Assembly (NCBI GenBank): GCA_016866355.1
Contig: VGMN01000002.1
Span: 1 to 64,000 of the forward strand
From: Bacteroidota bacterium
Lineage (GTDB): Bacteria; Bacteroidota; Bacteroidia; Chitinophagales; Chitinophagaceae
Length of the DNA stretch: 64,000 bases
Direction: 5' to 3'
This document shows, in pieces, positions 37,836 to 48,523 of this stretch (positions are counted from its first letter, which is position 1; every line of letters begins with the position of its first letter). A program made the translations under genes and the position numbers. Under the pieces are notes generated by a model. That model was not told where the DNA came from. It did no database searches and saw only the letters and a program-made list of their open reading frames with translations.

Positions 37836-37859
37836 AGGTGCAAAGGTACCGGTACTTTT

Positions 37860-38507
37860 TTAAGCGAGCCAACTTATTAAGCAGCAAAGCAGGGCTACCA
37901 CTACTGCAGCAAGTGCTATTTGATATTTTTCTGAGGCCCACCTGTACTGTTGTGAAGCTACGTACTGTTTGACCTTTTGCTGACATGTTACATCATTCAG
38001 ACGGCAAATATTTTTTAGTAGTTCTTGTTGCGTGCCAAAGGGTAATTTAGTAAGACATTGCAAATACCGATCTGTAATTTGTTGGTTTAGTATAGTATCG
38101 TTAGCCGTATTTAATAGTGCAACAGAGGAAGGAGCCAATAAGAAAAGTATTGTTTGTTTGATGAAATCGGTATCTAATCGATAGCTATCCATTCGGTTAA
38201 CTTTTTTTTCAAATGCTATCATTGCCTGCAGGATGGCATAAGCATCACTTGGTGCAGCTAATGGTTTAGATCGGTATACTTGCTGAAGCCACCGTTGTTG
38301 TAAGTATTTTTCTTTCTTTATGGGGTCGCTTAATGTTTCATACGCCTCTTGGATCTCTTGAAAACTATAAATTTCTTGTGCTTCTCCCTGCTTAACATCG
38401 GGGTGTGTTACTCGAACGCGTTCTCGCCAAGCTTTTTTGATTATCATGGCAGTAGCTCCTGGTTCAACCCCTAGAATCTTATAATAGTCTCTGAAGGTGT
38501 TTGACAT
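37860..38507 (-). CDS. J-domain protein with C-terminal transmembrane segment
   Basis: 215 aa; YYKILGVEPGAT...RVTHPDVKQG...EIQEAYETLSDPIKKEKY; C-term ALAAVVVALLCCLISWL. Confidence 0.9.
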   Translation of the reverse strand: MSNTFRDYYKILGVEPGATAMIIKKAWRERVRVTHPDVKQGEAQEIYSFQEIQEAYETLSDPIKKEKYLQQRWLQQVYRSKPLAAPSDAYAILQAMIAFEKKVNRMDSYRLDTDFIKQTILFLLAPSSVALLNTANDTILNQQITDRYLQCLTKLPFGTQQELLKNICRLNDVTCQQKVKQYVASQQYRWASEKYQIALAAVVVALLCCLISWLA

Positions 38508-38509
38508 AA

Positions 38510-39712
38510 TTATTGCTCAAAGTAACAGCATGTTCCGCCGACCCATGTTTTATCAAGGTTGTATCTGGTCCCAATCATTGCTCCTTTACTAATCCTACCT
38601 AGATTATTGACTGGAATTGGGGCGGCACCTCCCGGTAACCACCAATAGAATAATCGTATTTCTGCTTTTGCAAATCCATTGGGGGTTTCAATGCAATCAG
38701 CATAACTTACTTTTTTTTGCAAGATCCAGTTTTCAGGGTCTTGTATTTTTTCCAATTGGGGTTTAGTGATGTCCAATACAACTCCTTGGCCAGCAAATGA
38801 GAAAAGTGGTTTTAAGACATAGTTTTCTAAATCAGTTGGCAATTGTTTGATTTCGTGTAGGAAATAAGTTGGTGGAATATTTGGGTGGTGTAAAAATGGG
38901 AGGGTATACTTACTTATTCTATAAAACCAGTGCGGATGTATACACCATTCTACTGCTAGGTTGCCTTGAATAGTTGCCAATGCCGCTTTTATGGGCGCTG
39001 GCTGCTGGAGTAATTCATCAAAAATTAAACGATTATAAATTCTTTTAATTGGTTGCAACTCGTTGCCCCTGTAATAAAAAAGTTGATTATCCTTTCGGAT
39101 TAATTTAGTTATACAAATTGTTTTGATGCCGGTGATTTCTTCTGTCACCACAAAGTCAATTCTTGTTTTTTGCTTTTCTGGAAATAACTCTAATAATATA
39201 ACTTCAGCTGGTTTGTGATTTCCTAGTAATAGGTTTTTCAAATGCTTTTTATAGTCGCTGGGATTCAACTGACTGAGGTATGTAGTATACTCAACAGGTA
39301 TTGGAGTGGTTGCTCTATATGCTTCATCAAGAATAGCTTGGTAGGCAAATAGCGATGGGAATCCTTGTATTTCTATTAACTGAGGGCTTAATTGTTTGGA
39401 TCCATTTTTGCAAATTCCAAAGTCAAAGGCCAAGAAAAGGGGATTCCCCTCATTTCCTTTTAACTGTAGTTGATGGGGTATTGATTTATCTGTAAGGGCT
39501 GTGAAGGATGAAGATTGTATGACCGATAGGATGTATTGACAAGTGTCTAACATCTCTTTTGTGAATTGCTTCGATATAAAAAGAGGCGTTTCTGCTACTC
39601 TAAAATCCAGCTGTGAAGGATACTGTTGTTCTATCCAGTTAAGTAGTAATTGGTACTGCTTTTCTGTAAAGGCGTTATTAAACTGTTGTCTAATTGCTGG
39701 GATCATTGGCAA
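38510..39712 (-). CDS. Putative ATP-grasp-like protein
   Basis: 400 aa; LIEIQGFPSLFAYQ, NYVLKPLFSFAGQGVVLDI, AEIRLFYWW, NNLGRISKGAMIGTRYN resemble ATP-grasp ligase segments. Confidence 0.6.
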   Translation of the reverse strand: MPMIPAIRQQFNNAFTEKQYQLLLNWIEQQYPSQLDFRVAETPLFISKQFTKEMLDTCQYILSVIQSSSFTALTDKSIPHQLQLKGNEGNPLFLAFDFGICKNGSKQLSPQLIEIQGFPSLFAYQAILDEAYRATTPIPVEYTTYLSQLNPSDYKKHLKNLLLGNHKPAEVILLELFPEKQKTRIDFVVTEEITGIKTICITKLIRKDNQLFYYRGNELQPIKRIYNRLIFDELLQQPAPIKAALATIQGNLAVEWCIHPHWFYRISKYTLPFLHHPNIPPTYFLHEIKQLPTDLENYVLKPLFSFAGQGVVLDITKPQLEKIQDPENWILQKKVSYADCIETPNGFAKAEIRLFYWWLPGGAAPIPVNNLGRISKGAMIGTRYNLDKTWVGGTCCYFEQ

Positions 39713-39717
39713 TTATT

Positions 39718-40566
39718 TCAATTCCAATTTGCAGCTAAACTTGCGTAAGCTTGATTAAGAAAATTTGGTAGGATACGGGCTTGTGTCCATTTAATTTTAT
39801 CTGGATCTTGTAGGTGTGTTAGCATGTTTCTCAGCTTTTCTTCTCCATGGTTTTCGATGACCATTCTTCTTTTCTCCTCCTGATTCAGATAGTGTGTCAT
39901 TCCTTCCGGATCTGCCTCTGGGTGGAACTGTGTTCCAATTAAATAGGGGTTAAAACGTAAGCCCATAACAGCTCGCTCATACGGTACATGTGGCCGCTCT
40001 TTTTCAATGCATAATAATTGGCCTCCGATTTCTTTTAATTGGTCCATCCGTGGTTGTACAATTTGGTAATCTCTACTGTCCACGGCGTAGAATGGGTCCT
40101 CGAGTCCTTCAAAAATGATTTCTTTTTTTCCGACTTCTTGTAGGTGTATTGGGAAAACTCCAAATGAGGTTGATCTTCTTTTGCAAACTAATCCCGTGTT
40201 TAGATAACGGCAAGCTAGTTGAAATGAATAACAGATGAAGAAGACAAACTTTTTATTCAATTGTGAGGGGTCGCTATTCCATCGTTGTATTGCATCCAAC
40301 CATTTGCACCAAGCTATATCCCAGTCCTCGTATCTACTTTCTAATGGACTGCCTGGCCCCCCGCTAGAAATGTATGCTTGATAAGAAAGGTCTGGGATTT
40401 CTTTCTTGAGTCTCACCTCAAAGTAGTCAACTTGTATGTTGATGTTTTTTTCTTCGCTCCATTTTTTTAAGATGGTTTGAATACCCCGCATACCCTGGTT
40501 GGTAGCACCCTGGTAGAGGTCCAACACCGCCACACGAAATACCCTATTAGTTTTGTGTGTGATCAT
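39718..40566 (-). CDS. Class I glutamine amidotransferase-like protein
   Basis: 282 aa; YISSGGPGSPLE, elbow FICYSFQLA with Cys, GTQFHPEADPEGM (His, Glu). Confidence 0.82.
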   Translation of the reverse strand: MITHKTNRVFRVAVLDLYQGATNQGMRGIQTILKKWSEEKNINIQVDYFEVRLKKEIPDLSYQAYISSGGPGSPLESRYEDWDIAWCKWLDAIQRWNSDPSQLNKKFVFFICYSFQLACRYLNTGLVCKRRSTSFGVFPIHLQEVGKKEIIFEGLEDPFYAVDSRDYQIVQPRMDQLKEIGGQLLCIEKERPHVPYERAVMGLRFNPYLIGTQFHPEADPEGMTHYLNQEEKRRMVIENHGEEKLRNMLTHLQDPDKIKWTQARILPNFLNQAYASLAANWN

Positions 40567-42203
40567 TTTTGTGAACTGTAAACTTTTTCTCCATTGATAA
40601 AGGTGCTTCTGATTTTTGTACTTAGTATTTCTGCTGGGCTGATATCCATCAAGTCTTTTTCAAGAATCACAAAGTCAGCCCATTTCCCTTTTTCTAAACT
40701 TCCTTTTTGTGATTCCTCAAAATTAGCCCGAGCCGCCCATGTAGTCATCCCTCTTAGGGCCTCTTGCCTGCTCAATGCTTCTTTAATTTGAAACCCATTG
40801 GCAGGCCAGCCTTTTGCGTCGGTTCTTGTTACGGCGGCATAAAAAGTTTTAAAAGGGGAAATGTCTTCAACGGGAAAGTCGGTGCCTAGCGGTATCCAGC
40901 CATTTTGCTTTAATAGTGACTGATATGCATACGCGTGAGAAATTCGCTCATTACCGAGACGCTCCTCCGCCCAATACATGTCTGACGTTGCGTGTGTCGG
41001 TTGTACGGATGGAATAATTTGGTATTGTCCAAAAAAATTAATGTCTGCTGGATCTACTACTTGTGCATGTTCTATCCTCCATCTTTTATTATCCCCTGTT
41101 GTGAGGTAACGTGCGTAGGTATTAAGTATGGTGCGATTTCCGCTGTCTCCAATTGCATGCGTATTCATTTGCCATCCATTCCTGTTACACCAATTAGCAA
41201 CACTATCAAAATGGGTTGGATCGCTTAATAGAAAGCCATGATGTCCTGCTCTGTCACTATACTCTTTTAATAAGCAAGCCCCTCGAGAGCCCAATGCACC
41301 ATCCCCATATACTTTAAAACTCCTAACAGTGAGACGATCGGTGATGAGTATACCATTTTTTTCAGCATAGGTATAATTAGCTTGCTTGTCGCTGAGCATA
41401 ACATATAACCGAATCAACAGGGAGCCATTTTTTTGTAACATTTTTAGTTGTTCAACTACCGATGCATCAAGGCCGCAGTCATCAATGGTAGTGAGTCCAA
41501 CTGCTAAGCAGTTTTCTTGTGCTTTTTTGATTGCTTTATTGAAAGCTTCTTCACTAACTGGTGGTATAATTTTATTTACCAGTTCCACCGCATTGTCAAT
41601 AAGTACACCTATTGGTTTACCGCCTTCCAGTAATACTTCGCCTCCTGTCATGGTTTCTCCTCCTTTGATTCCAGCTTGTTGTAAGGCATATTGGTTAGCT
41701 ATTGCAGCATGGCCATCCACTCTGGTAAGTAACACGGGTCTGTCTGGAAATAATTTATTAAGTAGGACGGGGTCTGGATATTTTTTGTCGGCCCAATCAT
41801 TTTGATCCCATCCTTCACCTAAAAGCCACCCAGTGGGATTTTCTTTTGCAAAATCTTGGAGTTTTTCAAGTATTTCCTCCCAGCTTTTAGTACCAACCAA
41901 GTTAACACGCAGCAAGTTGAGTGCATAGCCAACAAAATGTGCATGTGCATCTATGAAACCTGGGTAGATAAATTTCCCTTCCGCATCTAATTTTTCAGCA
42001 AATGAGTAACGGGCTGATAAAGCGGATGCGCTACCCGTGGCTACAATTTTCCCATTTTTGATGGCCATGGCCTCTGTCACAGTAAATAGAGAGTCTACCG
42101 TATAAATTTTTGCGTTGTATACTAGCAAGTCTGCCTTTTCACTTGTGCAAGCACTAAAGCATAAGGCAATACCAAGCACCAAGAAAATGTTTTTTAATTG
42201 CAT
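40563..42203 (-). CDS. Amidohydrolase family lipoprotein (YtcJ-like)
   Basis: 546 aa; lipobox FSAC; GFIDAHAHF metal motif, MNTHAIGDSGNRTIL, IPLGTDFPVE. Confidence 0.92.
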   Translation of the reverse strand: MQLKNIFLVLGIALCFSACTSEKADLLVYNAKIYTVDSLFTVTEAMAIKNGKIVATGSASALSARYSFAEKLDAEGKFIYPGFIDAHAHFVGYALNLLRVNLVGTKSWEEILEKLQDFAKENPTGWLLGEGWDQNDWADKKYPDPVLLNKLFPDRPVLLTRVDGHAAIANQYALQQAGIKGGETMTGGEVLLEGGKPIGVLIDNAVELVNKIIPPVSEEAFNKAIKKAQENCLAVGLTTIDDCGLDASVVEQLKMLQKNGSLLIRLYVMLSDKQANYTYAEKNGILITDRLTVRSFKVYGDGALGSRGACLLKEYSDRAGHHGFLLSDPTHFDSVANWCNRNGWQMNTHAIGDSGNRTILNTYARYLTTGDNKRWRIEHAQVVDPADINFFGQYQIIPSVQPTHATSDMYWAEERLGNERISHAYAYQSLLKQNGWIPLGTDFPVEDISPFKTFYAAVTRTDAKGWPANGFQIKEALSRQEALRGMTTWAARANFEESQKGSLEKGKWADFVILEKDLMDISPAEILSTKIRSTFINGEKVYSSQK

Positions 42204-42212
42204 AAAGTAGAA

Positions 42213-43322
42213 TTATAAACCTGCCAAAAATTGTGAATGGATAAAGGAAGCCACTTCTTTGAGATCGCCAGTTTTTTCAAAAATGGCTAATTGCCTATCA
42301 GCGCCGGTCCCCTGTTGTAAAATGCTTTCTACTCCTTCAATACGCTCGCGACTGCCTAATTGGTCAAGCACTGGATCTAAAAAGTCTACCAATTCAAGAA
42401 TCAATGCACATGTATTTATTTCCTCCTCTTTCCCAAAATCAATTAATTGTCCATCTACCCCATATCGACTTGCTCGCCATTTATTTTCATTTAAAAGTGC
42501 CCGGGAGTATTGGATAAAGTTTAAATTTTTAGACCGTAACATATAAATGCGTGCGCAAATCGCTTGAAATAATGCTGCAATTGTAATTGTTTCGTCAACA
42601 GTCAAGGGAATGTCGCAGATTCTAAATTCAACAGTATTGAAATAGGGATGAACGCGTAGATCCCACCAAATCTTTTTTGCATTATCAATGCAATTAGTCT
42701 TGATGAGTAGTTTTACATAATTATCGTATGCTTCAATGCTATCAAAGGAGTCAGGAATCCCAGTGCGGGGGAATTTGTCAAATACTTTTGTGCGAAATGA
42801 TTTATAACCGGTTTTTCTTCCTTCCCAGAAGGGGGAATTAGTACTAAGGGCAAATATGTGAGGGAGAAAATAACGGGTGCTATTGGCAATATGATTTGCC
42901 ATTTCTCGGCTTTGCATCCCCACATGCACATGAAGTCCAAAAATTAAGTTACTACGTGCAGCTTCTTGTAATTCATTGACAATTTCGTTGTAACGAATAT
43001 GATCAGTAATTAATTGACTTTGCCAATGACTAAAGGGGTGCGTCCCTGCAGCGCCCATGGCAAATCCACAGGATGTTGCGATGGCACTCATATTTTTTCG
43101 AAGCATAGAAACGTCACGATAGGCTTCTTCTATGTCAGCACAAATATCAGTCCCAACCTCTACTACCGCTTGATGCATTTCTGCTTTTACCTTATCCTTT
43201 AGTAATTGTTGACCTGCCTGCACCAATTGCTGTTGATGGCTTTTTAGTTCGTAGGTAACCGGATCAAGTACCATGTACTCTTCCTCTACGCCTATGGTAA
43301 AAGTTTTATAATTTAAGTTCAT
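42213..43322 (-). CDS. Carboxylate-amine ligase, glutamate-cysteine ligase family 2 (YbdK-like)
   Basis: From ATG 43322 (track start 43397 gives an unlikely extension); TFTIGVEEEYMVLDP, VHVGMQSREMANHIAN, DLRVHPYFNTVEFRICD. Confidence 0.9.
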   Translation of the reverse strand: MNLNYKTFTIGVEEEYMVLDPVTYELKSHQQQLVQAGQQLLKDKVKAEMHQAVVEVGTDICADIEEAYRDVSMLRKNMSAIATSCGFAMGAAGTHPFSHWQSQLITDHIRYNEIVNELQEAARSNLIFGLHVHVGMQSREMANHIANSTRYFLPHIFALSTNSPFWEGRKTGYKSFRTKVFDKFPRTGIPDSFDSIEAYDNYVKLLIKTNCIDNAKKIWWDLRVHPYFNTVEFRICDIPLTVDETITIAALFQAICARIYMLRSKNLNFIQYSRALLNENKWRASRYGVDGQLIDFGKEEEINTCALILELVDFLDPVLDQLGSRERIEGVESILQQGTGADRQLAIFEKTGDLKEVASFIHSQFLAGL

Positions 43323-44253
43323 GACTACTTTTTTTGACAAATTCCCCCCATGTAAGCGTGGGATTTTTGGCTTGTGCTTGTGCTTTTTCAATAGCAAAGT
43401 TTGCCGTGGTTTCTACAACCCATTCAAAATTTTCATCTCCTACACTAGCACGATCTGCATCTGGAGCCGGATTGCAAAAATCAATAGCGTAAGGTATACC
43501 ATTTCTGACTGCCAGTTCAACCGTATTAAAATCATAGCCTAATTGCTGATTGATAGTTAATACTATTTTTTCCATTTCAGCTAATAGTGTTGGACTTGGA
43601 GAAAAAGAGGCTTGGTAGCGTAAATGATGAGGATTACGAGGTTCGTAAGGCATAATTCGTACATGTTTCCTGCCAATACAGTAGCAACGGTAGTACTCTG
43701 TAAAAATTATTTCCTCTTGCAATAGCATTACTAATTGACCAGTTTCATTGTGTTTCTCGTAGAATTCCTTTTCGTTCTCCAATCGGTAAACGTTTTTCCA
43801 TCCACCACCCGCAAAAGGTTTCATGTAAGCAGGAAAGCCTACATAATTGAAAATGCTTTTCCAGTCAAGTGGGTAATGCAGGTTTGAGAAAGAATCTTCA
43901 TTGGTGTCTTCAGGCCATTGGTGAGAAGGTAGGATGGCGGTTTTAGGCACCGGGATACCTAATTGCGTCATCAAACAATTATTGAAATACTTATCATCCG
44001 CACTAAACCAAAATGGATTATTGATAACAGCTGTACCCGTTAGTGCCGCATTTTTTAACCAGGTCCTATAGAAGGGAACATCTTGTGAAATTCTATCAAT
44101 GATAACCGTGTAACCAGAAAATTCTCCTTGAATGGCTTTGTCGATTTTCACGGGTTCTGCAACAATACCCGCAGCATTTTTACTATTAACCCGGGCAACA
44201 AAGGCCTCGGGAAATGATCTTTCTCTTCCGTGGAGAATTCCAATTTTAAGCAT
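43306..44253 (-). CDS. ATP-grasp ligase (RimK-like)
   Basis: 315 aa; FPAYMKPFAGGGWKNVYRLEN, LLQEEIIFTEYYRCYCIGRK, FNTVELAVRNGIPYAIDFCNPAPD. Confidence 0.85.
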   Translation of the reverse strand: MLKIGILHGRERSFPEAFVARVNSKNAAGIVAEPVKIDKAIQGEFSGYTVIIDRISQDVPFYRTWLKNAALTGTAVINNPFWFSADDKYFNNCLMTQLGIPVPKTAILPSHQWPEDTNEDSFSNLHYPLDWKSIFNYVGFPAYMKPFAGGGWKNVYRLENEKEFYEKHNETGQLVMLLQEEIIFTEYYRCYCIGRKHVRIMPYEPRNPHHLRYQASFSPSPTLLAEMEKIVLTINQQLGYDFNTVELAVRNGIPYAIDFCNPAPDADRASVGDENFEWVVETTANFAIEKAQAQAKNPTLTWGEFVKKSSHELKL

Positions 44254-44340
44254 AAACAGGGTGTTCCTCGAAAGTAGTAGCTTGCTTGCATCTAAACAAA
44301 TCCTCTATGACGGTAGGTTGTTAAATGTTAATTTTGGCAG

Positions 44341-45168
44341 GTGCTTCGCGTTACTACTAATTCGATAACACTGTCAGAAGTAAAATGTTATGCTGCTTCA
44401 TTGGAACGAGTGGTTCAAGTTGATATTTATCATGCTGCTGGATTACCTACCGCCAACAGCTCCTTGTTGATTTTACTAGACGGGCAGGATTTACCCACTG
44501 TTCACTTTAATCAATGGCTAACACAGGCCTGGCGAATAGACGCCTATGGTCCATTGGTGATAGCTGCCATCCATGCTGGCTCAGACCGTAAAATGGAGTA
44601 TGGAGTGGTGGGGGCCCCTGATTACATGGGAAGGGGCGCCAAGGCTGACCTTCATGCTTTATTTATTAAGGATCAACTATTACAGCTCCTAAATGATAAT
44701 TTAGGTATCAACTCTTTTTCATCTTACTCAATTGCCGGATTTTCTTTAGGAGGGTTGACGGCATTTGATTTAGCTTGGGGCCAGGTTTTACCCTTCAGCA
44801 GGGTGGGAGTTTTTTCGGGTTCCTTATGGTGGAGAAGTGTTGATCAAGATGACCCAATTTATCAAGATAGTAAGCACCGAATCATACATCAAAAAGTACA
44901 GCAAACAATCTGTAACAATCCACAGCTTCGCTTTTTTTTCCAATGTGGTGGACTAGATGAAAATAACGATCGAAATAAAAATGGAATCATAGATTCCATA
45001 GATGATACAGTAGACTTACTACATGGACTTGAGCAAAAAGGATTCATAAAAGGGGAGCATCTTGCTTATTTGGAAATTCCTACAGGTAAACATAACCTGG
45101 AAACATGGCTGGAGGCTATGCCTCATTTTTTTGAATGGGGCTGGTCCAACAAGTTCCGGAATGCGTAA
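44341..45168 (+). CDS. Putative alpha/beta-hydrolase esterase
   Basis: 275 aa from GTG start; nucleophile elbow AGFSLGGLTAFD; SLWWRS; His near C-term (TGKHNLETWLEAMPHFF). Confidence 0.83.
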   Translation: MLRVTTNSITLSEVKCYAASLERVVQVDIYHAAGLPTANSSLLILLDGQDLPTVHFNQWLTQAWRIDAYGPLVIAAIHAGSDRKMEYGVVGAPDYMGRGAKADLHALFIKDQLLQLLNDNLGINSFSSYSIAGFSLGGLTAFDLAWGQVLPFSRVGVFSGSLWWRSVDQDDPIYQDSKHRIIHQKVQQTICNNPQLRFFFQCGGLDENNDRNKNGIIDSIDDTVDLLHGLEQKGFIKGEHLAYLEIPTGKHNLETWLEAMPHFFEWGWSNKFRNA

Positions 45169-45171
45169 AAC

Positions 45172-45203
45172 AAAAAGGCCGCCCAGTTGGGCGGCCTTTT
45201 TAA
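45172..45203. terminator. Bidirectional intrinsic terminator between convergent genes
   Basis: aaaaaggccgccca-gt-tgggcggccttttt near-perfect inverted repeat. Confidence 0.92.
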
Positions 45204-45220
45204 AGTAGTAAACAGTTTGC

Positions 45221-48200
45221 TTAGTTGAAAAGGTAACGCAAGCCAAATTGGATAGAATAAGTTGAAGCAATGCTCACATTATCGCGGAAGGTCTTGGTTA
45301 TAATGTCACCATTTGCACTAGCCAAACGGTAAATTGGAAGAACAGTACCGCCAGGAACCAGGGCAGTAGCATTGGTTATAGCTAATACACGGCTATTATT
45401 AATGGTTTTTAATTTACCCCATCCTGGATCAACCAGGTTGCCAGCATTGAAAATATCGATGCTGAACTGAAGTACGTTTTTAGTACCCTTAATATTAGCA
45501 AATAAGTCCTGTAGAATTTTTACATCCAATCTGTTCAACCAAGGCAATTGGGCGCCATTACGCTCAGCAAATTGTCCACGATGTGCTCTTAGGTATTTAT
45601 CCTGCTGGATATAACGCTCAAATAAAGCACGTTGATTAGCTTGGCTGTAAGAAACACCATTTACAGTATTAGCACCAAAAAGCATTTGTTGTACCTCAGT
45701 AGCAGTTGGGATGTACATCAAATCATTTCCTTGTACACCATCACGGTTAAAGTCACCGTCATATACATAACTGAAGCGACCATTGATTCCACCATTATAA
45801 AAAGCAGAAATGGTAGTAGCAAGGTTTTTGAAGTATTCTTTACGGTAGGAGAGCGTTGCTACTACACGATCAGGGATTACATAGTCAGCATAGCTCAGCA
45901 TTGGTGCATTAGGCCCAAACACGTTTGCAGTTCCCTGCCATGCAGAAAGAGGCTGGTCACCACCACCATCAAATAAATTCGAGGCCATTGATTTTGTGTA
46001 AGCAACTGACCAAGCGAATCCTTTACTGTAAGATTTTTCAAGTTTAGCAGTTAAGGAGAAGTAGTAACCACGATTTCCATTATCAAGCACAACAGTGTTA
46101 AAGGCACCACTAGCACCAGCTTGAGGAATACCATTATTGAGTGTATTGATAAATCTAGTTTGGTTAGTTGTACCATACACAGGTCTGTTGTCAGGATAGC
46201 CGGCGATATTTAATGCAGCAGGGGCAATCATATTAGGGTTGCGGAAAATAGCTGTGTTCACATCTTTATTAAAGATGGCTTCCAATGTTCCTACAACACC
46301 TTTGCCAAGACGAGTGTCGATAGCTAGGGTAGTTTTCCAAGTTTGAGGATTCTTAAAATCTTCAACTAGGGCAGTGATACTTCCAGGTACAATGGTACCG
46401 GCAGTTGGAACTACAGAAGGTCTGTAAGCAGCAGGGTTAGGATTGAAAGGACCAGGTGTGTTGGCCTGACCATTCCAGAACTGAGTTACTTGGATCATTC
46501 CATTATCTCCAGACTGGCTCACTATCCATACAAAAGGAACACGTCCAGTAAAGATTCCAGTTCCACCACGGATTTGAAGAGAGCGATCTCCATAAAGATC
46601 CCAGTTAAATCCAACACGTGGAGACCACATCAACCGGTTCTTTGGTAAGTTACCGGTATTGATTGTTTCACCAGCGGCAAATGACATCTTAGCTACAAGC
46701 GGGTGTGTTACGATTTGTGGAACCTCAGGGTATGTTGGAAGATCTACACGAAGTCCCAGTGTTACGCGTAAGTCCTTGTTTACTGCAATTTCATCTTGCC
46801 CATATAATGAGTATTGACCAAACTTGAATGCAGAAAACGCAGGGGCAAAGTTTTTAGACAAAGAGTAGGTAATAGCAAAGTCGCGAGGCTTATTACCATT
46901 AGCAAAATCTGACCAAGTATTGAAAACATAATAGCTTGTTGCAAAACGTTGGAATCCATTCACAGTCTCACTCAATTCAAATTGGCCACCAACGGTCCAA
47001 TTGTGAATACCTTTTGTCCAAGTGGTATTGTTAATTACAGAGTACGTTTTTACCTGACGAAGATTACCAAAGCTGAATGGCTCATATCCAAATGAGGTGT
47101 AGGGAGCAGGTCCAGTTACACCTCCGGTGTTACTGAGAATGTCAACGAAAGGAAAGATCTGACTATCAGTAGAGCGAGAATCGTTTTGGAAAGTATAAGT
47201 AGCACGAAGTGTGTTAGATACCTTTCCAAAAGAGGAATTCAATTCAGCAGCTAATGAATAAAGATTAGCGCCTTGGAAATAGTTTGAATTTTTAAACCAT
47301 TGAGAGGTACTTGCCGTACGCGTACTGGTGTAGTTCACGTTAGAACCCGATACGGAAGTACTAGGCGTAAATGGTTCACCACCCTCAACCTGGCTATAGC
47401 GAACGTTCATGCGATGTTTGCTATTGATGTTCCAGTCCAAACGCACCAGGTATTTTTTACGCTCGATATTTGGCACATAACCCTGATATGGTCCAGTTAC
47501 GTATCCATATTTGTCAAGTAAAAATTGACTAATATAATTTAAAGAATCAGCCGTAGGGCGAACAATATTAGGGGCACTTCCGTAAGGAGCAGCTGCAGTA
47601 GCAGCAAAAAAGTTTTGAATAGACTTTGGTTGATTTTCTGTTTCGTAGTTCAAGAAGAAAAACAACTTATTCTTAATGATGGGTCCACCCATGCGGAAGC
47701 CATATTGTTTGTATTCTTCAACGGGGCGCAAAAACTTAGAAGCTTCAACTTGATCACCACGCTGTTTTTCTGTACGGAAATAGTTATAAACAGATCCGCT
47801 GAATGTGTTAGTACCAGCGCGCGTTACCGCATTGATAGCAGATCCGATGAATCCAGATTGTCTGATATCAAAGGGAGTGATGTTTACAGAAATTTCATCG
47901 ATAGCATCCAGTGAAATGGGGGCGCCACCTGCAGGCAGATTAGATCCAATTCCAAAGCTGTTGTTGAAATCAGAACCATCCACGGTAAAGTTATTTTGAC
48001 GATAGTTACCACCACCCACAGAAGCACCATTTGCCTGTGGTGTAACACGTGTAATGTCATTCAAGCTACGGCTGATAGTTGGGAGTTGGTTGATCTGGCG
48101 TGTACCAACATTGGTGACAGCCCCGGTTCTTCCAGCATTCAGAATTGCATTTCTTCTAGTACTTACCACCACATTTTCCAATGCTGCTGATGCGTTGGTT

Positions 48201-48523
48201 AATTCTGCTTTCAACAAAAAGGGTTCGCCTAATTGTAGAAAAATATTCTCATACTTCTCGGCTTTGTGGCCAACAAAGCTGACCTCAATTAAGTAGGGTC
48301 CGCCCACACGCATGTTTTGAATGTTGTACTGTCCGCCGGCACGTGAAACAGTTGAATACTTGGTTCCGGAAGGCAGGTGGGTGGCAATCACAGTGGCTCC
48401 CACAAGTGCTTCACGGGAGTTGCTTTTAACATCACCGGTTAACACTGCGGTTGTAACCTGCGCATAAAGCAGGGAACCTGATGCCAGACTGACCATTAAC
48501 AAAAAGAGGATTCTCTTAAGCAT
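45221..48523 (-). CDS. TonB-dependent receptor with carboxypeptidase regulatory-like domain (Oar-like)
   Basis: 1100 aa; TAVLTGDVKSNSREALVGATVIATHLPSGTKYSTVSRAGGQYNI; NNFTVDGSDFNNSFGIGSNLPAGGAPISLDAIDEISVNITPFDIRQSGFIGSAINAVTRAGTNTFSGSVYNYFRT. Confidence 0.93.
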   Translation of the reverse strand: MLKRILFLLMVSLASGSLLYAQVTTAVLTGDVKSNSREALVGATVIATHLPSGTKYSTVSRAGGQYNIQNMRVGGPYLIEVSFVGHKAEKYENIFLQLGEPFLLKAELTNASAALENVVVSTRRNAILNAGRTGAVTNVGTRQINQLPTISRSLNDITRVTPQANGASVGGGNYRQNNFTVDGSDFNNSFGIGSNLPAGGAPISLDAIDEISVNITPFDIRQSGFIGSAINAVTRAGTNTFSGSVYNYFRTEKQRGDQVEASKFLRPVEEYKQYGFRMGGPIIKNKLFFFLNYETENQPKSIQNFFAATAAAPYGSAPNIVRPTADSLNYISQFLLDKYGYVTGPYQGYVPNIERKKYLVRLDWNINSKHRMNVRYSQVEGGEPFTPSTSVSGSNVNYTSTRTASTSQWFKNSNYFQGANLYSLAAELNSSFGKVSNTLRATYTFQNDSRSTDSQIFPFVDILSNTGGVTGPAPYTSFGYEPFSFGNLRQVKTYSVINNTTWTKGIHNWTVGGQFELSETVNGFQRFATSYYVFNTWSDFANGNKPRDFAITYSLSKNFAPAFSAFKFGQYSLYGQDEIAVNKDLRVTLGLRVDLPTYPEVPQIVTHPLVAKMSFAAGETINTGNLPKNRLMWSPRVGFNWDLYGDRSLQIRGGTGIFTGRVPFVWIVSQSGDNGMIQVTQFWNGQANTPGPFNPNPAAYRPSVVPTAGTIVPGSITALVEDFKNPQTWKTTLAIDTRLGKGVVGTLEAIFNKDVNTAIFRNPNMIAPAALNIAGYPDNRPVYGTTNQTRFINTLNNGIPQAGASGAFNTVVLDNGNRGYYFSLTAKLEKSYSKGFAWSVAYTKSMASNLFDGGGDQPLSAWQGTANVFGPNAPMLSYADYVIPDRVVATLSYRKEYFKNLATTISAFYNGGINGRFSYVYDGDFNRDGVQGNDLMYIPTATEVQQMLFGANTVNGVSYSQANQRALFERYIQQDKYLRAHRGQFAERNGAQLPWLNRLDVKILQDLFANIKGTKNVLQFSIDIFNAGNLVDPGWGKLKTINNSRVLAITNATALVPGGTVLPIYRLASANGDIITKTFRDNVSIASTYSIQFGLRYLFN

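Follow-up and report, generated by a model that had tools for sequence, protein, structure and literature searches.

A co-inherited set of amide ligase and esterase genes in Bacteroidota as a candidate pathway for a small non-ribosomal peptide or amide

Operons in which hydrolases accompany several amide ligases have been predicted before. Operons with ATP-grasp and GCS2 amidoligases were predicted to make non-ribosomal peptides or amides by Iyer et al. 2009 (Mol Biosyst 5:1636, as cited in PMC4431377), and the locus analyzed in this study likewise holds, as those operons are outlined in the citing source, several amide ligases of unrelated folds together with hydrolases or peptidases in one neighborhood. 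Relative to that outline, the features reported here are the strict mutual exclusion of two ligases (AG2 and c7 below), an esterase termed c3, and co-inheritance throughout the phylum. The open literature searched, outside which the 2009 amidoligase survey lies, contained no description of the assemblage, of its strict co-inheritance, or of the swap between AG2 and c7. Among single enzymes, YgiC and YjfC of E. coli are peptide-spermidine ligases (Pederick et al. 2023, as cited in PMC12568646).

The window, i.e., the whole stretch of DNA analyzed (64,000 nucleotides), belongs to a small genome of 1.76 Mb from a member of the Chitinophagaceae, as its nearest named relatives indicate. Seven ORFs, all open and lacking internal stops, occupy positions 37860-45168:

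37860..38507, minus strand: J-domain protein with a C-terminal hydrophobic segment, probably a bystander
38510..39706, minus strand: AG2, predicted ATP-grasp protein of the glutathione synthetase/glutathionylspermidine synthase/YgiC type, core
39718..40566, minus strand: class I glutamine-amidotransferase-like protein (GATase), frequent partner
40563..42203, minus strand: lipoprotein amidohydrolase (Amidohydro_3), optional neighbor
42213..43322, minus strand: GCS2, YbdK-type carboxylate-amine ligase, core together with AG2
43306..44253, minus strand: AG1, predicted ATP-grasp ligase, RimK/LysX/Ddl-like, hallmark gene and core
44341..45168, plus strand: PF00756 esterase, divergent from AG1, frequent partner

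The minus-strand genes run in the order AG1, GCS2, amidohydrolase, GATase, AG2, and J-domain gene; the intervals between them are -17 nt (AG1-GCS2, the GCS2 ATG lying at 43322), +9 (GCS2-amidohydrolase), -4 (amidohydrolase-GATase), +11 (GATase-AG2), and +2 nt (AG2-J-domain gene). An ABC-F gene follows the J-domain gene after +24 nt, with a TACCTTTG box in between, and 87 nt separate AG1 from the divergent esterase. The sequence-only reading had described six packed minus-strand genes and a divergent esterase, which was confirmed with gaps of -17 to +11 nt; its 5-nt gap between GATase and AG2 is really +11, since it rested on a TTG two codons upstream of the ATG at 39706, a start codon invariant in 33 homologues. 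Sites of the TANNTTTG promoter motif were found at 44329 (plus strand) and 40718 (minus strand, within the amidohydrolase gene), and no exact TANNTTTG site lies upstream of AG1 on its own strand; the motif was more frequent in shuffled sequence than in the real window sequence. A riboswitch scan gave no match above the gathering score, and weak leader-like matches at 45091-45335 coincide with convergent gene ends.

The survey sample consisted of 297 Bacteroidota genomes and, beyond Bacteroidota, of plasmid and phage records. AG1 had matches in 108 of the 297 genomes, and four of these, with <45% identity, were counted as paralogues, leaving 104. In the 107 AG1 loci examined with simple ORF calling, the genes found within 9 kb of AG1 were GCS2 (56 loci), AG2 (48), GATase (46), the esterase (22), the amidohydrolase (3), and the J-domain gene (0). 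Clustering of the locus ORFs without prior families recovered the same gene set plus c3, a 237-aa PF00756-type hydrolase whose gene immediately precedes AG1 in 45 loci. The order esterase< AG1> GCS2> GATase> AG2> recurs in many families and is more than chance; the neighborhood search found the set conserved outside the window genome, across many Bacteroidota families, as the operon proposed from the sequence would require. In the 80 loci closest to that of the window, nearly all from Chitinophagaceae, GCS2 stands beside AG1 in 78 (the other two loci end soon past AG1) and the window esterase adjoins AG1 in 77, and the GATase-AG2 pair is near AG1 in <20, twice inverted as a unit.

The earlier view of the stretch as one unit stood for the ligase/GATase/hydrolase set, which is co-inherited, but not for its two remaining members. 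The J-domain protein (DnaJ, 69.8 bits) was ruled out as a part of the cluster because its gene is not conserved at other loci, the only two J-domain matches in the 80 Chitinophagaceae loci lying >3 kb off, beyond the esterase. Similarly, the amidohydrolase (Amidohydro_3, 324 bits, lipobox SAC) was rejected as a core gene, being beside AG1 in just 7/80 Chitinophagaceae loci; in other, distant families, a relative lies ahead of AG2 at 11 loci. Both genes may be co-transcribed with the rest.

AG1 was present in 104, AG2 in 92, and GCS2 in 87 of the 297 genomes. AG1 and AG2 occurred together in 89 genomes, AG1 alone in 15, AG2 alone in 3, and neither in 190 (Fisher 1.7e-55, shared ancestry ignored), and GCS2 was never found without AG2 (87/87 genomes; 5 with AG2 only and 205 with neither; 9.6e-70, shared ancestry likewise ignored). 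For AG1 and GATase, the counts were 69 both, 35 AG1 only, 1 GATase only, and 192 neither. Genes that are unlinked are still all present, e.g., GATase and AG2 in Chitinophagaceae. The disregard of common ancestry in these p-values is partly answered by a within-family contrast of 44 genomes, 26 with the cluster and 18 others, drawn from families in which both occur. In this contrast, c3 was found in 25/25 AG1 genomes and 0/19 AG1-free genomes, or, counted by cluster, in 25/26 against 0/18, the exception being genome G154. This genome keeps GCS2-GATase-AG2 and is without AG1 and c3 together, a pattern that hints at a pathway made of two sub-modules. The core genes named by co-inheritance are c3, AG1, AG2 or c7, and GCS2.

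The window esterase (PF00756, 57.5 bits, with conserved catalytic Ser/Asp/His motifs) exceeded 250 bits in 20/26 cluster genomes and 0/18 others; PF00756 membership does not specify an esterase substrate. In Chitinophagaceae, the window genome included, c3 lies apart from the cluster and has diverged further (205-233 bits), so that its orthology there is less sure. No c3 gene is visible in the window; the best match in the window genome lies on contig 17 (495-1196). In some lineages the cluster is joined by c8, a further ATP-grasp (7/26 cluster genomes vs 0/18 others), or by M29 or M17 aminopeptidases.

The set contains three kinds of ATP-dependent carboxylate-amine ligase with conserved motifs in all, and the active sites of GCS2 and the ATP-grasp proteins, whose degradation would have spoken against the sequence-only reading, are intact in their motifs among relatives. 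Since the core set is co-inherited in about a third of the sampled Bacteroidota, its product is probably a small, peptide-like molecule. We consider, with a probability of roughly 55%, that these genes form a single pathway in which a small non-ribosomal peptide or amide, probably gamma-glutamyl, is both made and turned over.

AG2 scored 15.6 bits against the Pfam family GSP_synth (PF03738), short of the gathering cut-off of 29.3, and the sole PDB match of its sequence profile was YgiC (E 0.03). Its AF2 model (pLDDT 93, built from an alignment of relatives) matched YgiC (2.9e-14), GspS-like 3n6x (3.3e-14), and human GSS (4e-14) in Foldseek. On this predicted structure, AG2 is assigned to the ATP-grasp proteins of the glutathione synthetase/YgiC type, in agreement with the ATP-grasp call made from the letters alone for 38510-39712. 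The conserved motifs are D97, P-x-L-I-E114-x-Q116, and K301-P-L-F-S-F-A-G, with the ATP-site lysine K301 kept in 100% of relatives; read by eye, the conserved metal-ligand motif appears to be E-x-Q instead of the usual E-x-N. Although E. coli YgiC/YjfC and glutathionylspermidine synthase are its best structural matches, AG2 is only about 16% identical to them and differs in this motif and in its gene partners.

In all 15 AG1 genomes without AG2, the gene directly behind AG1 is c7, a 453-aa CP_ATPgrasp_2-like protein (36.7 bits vs a cut-off of 32). No alpha-E protein or NTN-hydrolase, the partners expected in an Anbu/alpha-E peptide-tagging system, stood out among the recurrent neighbors at the loci. 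Genome-wide matches to c7 of >760 bits were confined to exactly those 15 genomes (0/92 AG2 genomes), so that every AG1 genome has exactly one of AG2 and c7. One distant c7 paralogue (378 bits) occurs in genome G137. Orthology of AG2 and c7 was rejected (hhalign probability 2.9%, E 0.016), the two being linked solely through 3n6x, which the c7 profile matches at 1.3e-8 and which is also the second-best structural match of AG2. We read c7 as a non-orthologous replacement of AG2 by an enzyme of the same type. From its presence in exactly the AG2-less AG1 genomes, a synthetase of the glutathione/glutathionylspermidine-synthetase type seems to be required in this slot.

The resemblance of AG2 and c7 to YgiC, 3n6x, and glutathione synthetases, together with the YbdK-like GCS2, is what a glutathione- or glutathionylspermidine-like system would predict, in which GCS2 would make gamma-Glu-Cys or similar, AG1 would add a residue, AG2 would conjugate a polyamine, and the esterases would resemble S-formylglutathione hydrolase, giving a second low-molecular-weight thiol or a polyamine conjugate. 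The nearest functional precedent for AG2 is the peptide-spermidine ligase activity of YgiC, as cited in PMC12568646, which favors the preferred pathway as well as such a system. However, the bacillithiol gene BshC is present in 44/44 contrast genomes, with and without the cluster, leaving no thiol gap to fill and ruling out a sole low-molecular-weight thiol pathway; nspC does not track the cluster, for which reason a norspermidine link was rejected; and neither the window esterase nor c3 matches an S-formylglutathione hydrolase model. A system of this kind is therefore unlikely.

GCS2 is a YbdK-type carboxylate-amine ligase by curated cut-offs (PF04107, 203 bits; NF010039, 509 bits against 371; TIGR02050, 293 bits against 176) and by the invariant motifs GxEEE, THPF, HxHxG, and TxExR, an assignment made at the level of sequence, and a profile of its relatives finds YbdK 1r8g at 6e-68. 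While a full family member of YbdK, a weak glutamate-cysteine ligase, by these models, GCS2 differs in sharing its operon with two ATP-grasp ligases. Which substrate YbdK-family enzymes use physiologically is, to our knowledge, not settled. Five AG2 genomes lack GCS2, and in c7 genomes it is lower-scoring or absent, with close orthologues missing; therefore, the first bond could be of another kind than gamma-glutamyl, and this step may vary. The GATase (PF00117, 31.4 bits, cut-off 22.8) is predicted to have the class I glutamine amidotransferase fold with an intact Cys-His-Glu triad, C112, H215, E217, and GGPG being invariant in 29/29 relatives.

PuuA and PuuD break down putrescine via gamma-glutamylation, by the logic of a ligase and a class I GATase-like hydrolase. 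The same pairing at this locus could belong to a catabolic route, in which the ligases would mark an amine or acid for degradation, by gamma-glutamylation or in another way, the GATase would remove the glutamyl group, and the amidohydrolase and esterases would open the substrate. An Amidohydro_3 protein recurs by AG2 in two distant groups, and one lineage has a sodium-solute symporter ahead of AG2, both in keeping with breakdown, but GCS2 and GATase do not require each other (51 genomes with both, 36 and 19 with only one) and no oxidase or dehydrogenase is among the recurrent neighbors at the AG1 loci. We regard such a route as improbable.

No Pfam match was obtained for AG1, and its score against rimK_fam (TIGR00768) was 29.3 bits, with a cut-off of 143.4, which places it outside the RimK family. 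Its AF2 model (pLDDT 90, also built from an alignment of relatives) had ArgX, Ddl (D-Ala-D-Ala ligase), and RimK as best Foldseek matches (E about 1e-12). The conserved motifs are K145-P, Q179, E246, and D258-F-x-N261, and the ATP-site lysine K145 is kept in 97% of relatives; this lysine and the modeled fold assign AG1 to the ATP-grasp superfamily. Its metal-ligand motif, conserved and likewise read by eye, appears to be D-F-x-N instead of E-x-N. AG1 would share fold and ATP site with RimK, LysX, ArgX, and D-Ala-D-Ala ligase, but it is only about 16% identical to them, carries this altered motif, and forms its own Bacteroidota family (50-79% identical). Plasmid records contained no match to AG1 or AG2, and a plasmid origin was ruled out on this basis; in phage records, AG1 matched only one RimK-like fragment.

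The nearest structures of AG1 would also suit protein modification, with AG1 adding residues to a protein or a carrier protein as RimK or LysX does, and the tag being removed by the hydrolases. This appears rather improbable, given the low RimK family score, the lack of a small carrier or substrate gene conserved beside the ligases across loci, and partners of the GCS2 and glutathione-synthetase types, which would rather fit small molecules. A graspetide-like ribosomal peptide cluster, in which ATP-grasp enzymes cyclize a precursor peptide, would share the company of ATP-grasp ligases with hydrolases or peptidases, but was ruled out as very unlikely because window gaps of <=87 nt are too small for a precursor gene and the one small ORF conserved around AG1 across loci, a 52-aa family after AG2, is confined to five related genomes.

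In the preferred reading of a pathway for a small non-ribosomal peptide or amide, the first amide would come from the YbdK-type GCS2 and would probably be a gamma-glutamyl-amine or gamma-glutamyl-amino acid, and AG1, as a RimK/LysX/Ddl-type ligase, would add an amino acid via an acyl phosphate. AG2, or c7 elsewhere, would make the last carboxyl-amine bond, the cap being an amino acid or an amine. The GATase-like protein would hydrolyze or transfer a gamma-glutamyl amide, and processing or recycling of the product would fall to the esterases and, where present, aminopeptidases. More tentatively, and as a possibility about which we are somewhat doubtful, this may be an undescribed pathway found phylum-wide in Bacteroidota and built from GCS2, AG1, one of two interchangeable glutathione-synthetase-type ligases, and a dedicated esterase, with a product that is probably a gamma-glutamyl peptide or peptide-amine conjugate of general role, e.g., as a cofactor, osmolyte, or in redox or detoxification.

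The natural swap of AG2 and c7 marks the step that the lineages share, and the co-inheritance pattern turns genes annotated without a role as 'ATP-grasp' and 'esterase' into a testable pathway. As the set occurs in about a third of the sampled Bacteroidota and is nearly always gained or lost jointly, it must make something useful to these bacteria.

An additional ATP-grasp family of about 403 aa (c8) was present in 7 of the 26 cluster genomes and in 0 of the 18 others of the within-family contrast. Members of c8 recurred near the cluster in several families (L036, L069, L071, L073, L096, L099, L101, L102, L104, and L105), and in some of these c8-type loci were accompanied by an M17-like aminopeptidase. 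Additionally, the slot between the YbdK-type ligase GCS2 and the glutathione synthetase/YgiC-type ATP-grasp AG2, that of the class I GATase-like protein, was occupied by an M29-type aminopeptidase (339 aa) in L066, L092, L094, and L097. GCS2, GATase, and AG2 were still adjacent in L257, from a genome (G154) lacking both the RimK/LysX/Ddl-like ATP-grasp AG1 and the esterase family c3.

In other families, an Amidohydro_3-like protein was encoded immediately 5' of AG2 (L220, L221, L222, L224-L226, L228, L232, L251, L252, and L254), an adjacency resembling that of the lipoprotein amidohydrolase next to GATase-AG2 in the window. The L220 protein, the sole one read of this set, had no signal peptide, and L222 carried a small ferredoxin-like gene upstream. 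A solute:sodium symporter gene immediately preceded AG2 in L231 (G133), and a single 867-aa open frame in L229 (G125) joined the corresponding upstream gene to AG2, possibly representing a transporter-ligase fusion or a lost stop.

Two features were located at the edges of the cluster in the window:

37841-37848, minus strand, TACCTTTG box within the 24-nt spacer that separates the J-domain and ABC-F genes

45221-48523, minus strand, gene that meets the esterase gene tail to tail and encodes a TonB-dependent-receptor-like protein (1100 aa)

The position of the receptor-like gene was conserved in 5 loci of the family. Where this gene and the esterase gene converge (45091-45335), several sub-threshold Rfam leader/antisense matches were found on both strands, and this pile-up of weak matches most likely reflects a terminator hairpin. 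At the opposite edge, the TACCTTTG box may supply the ABC-F gene with a promoter of its own.
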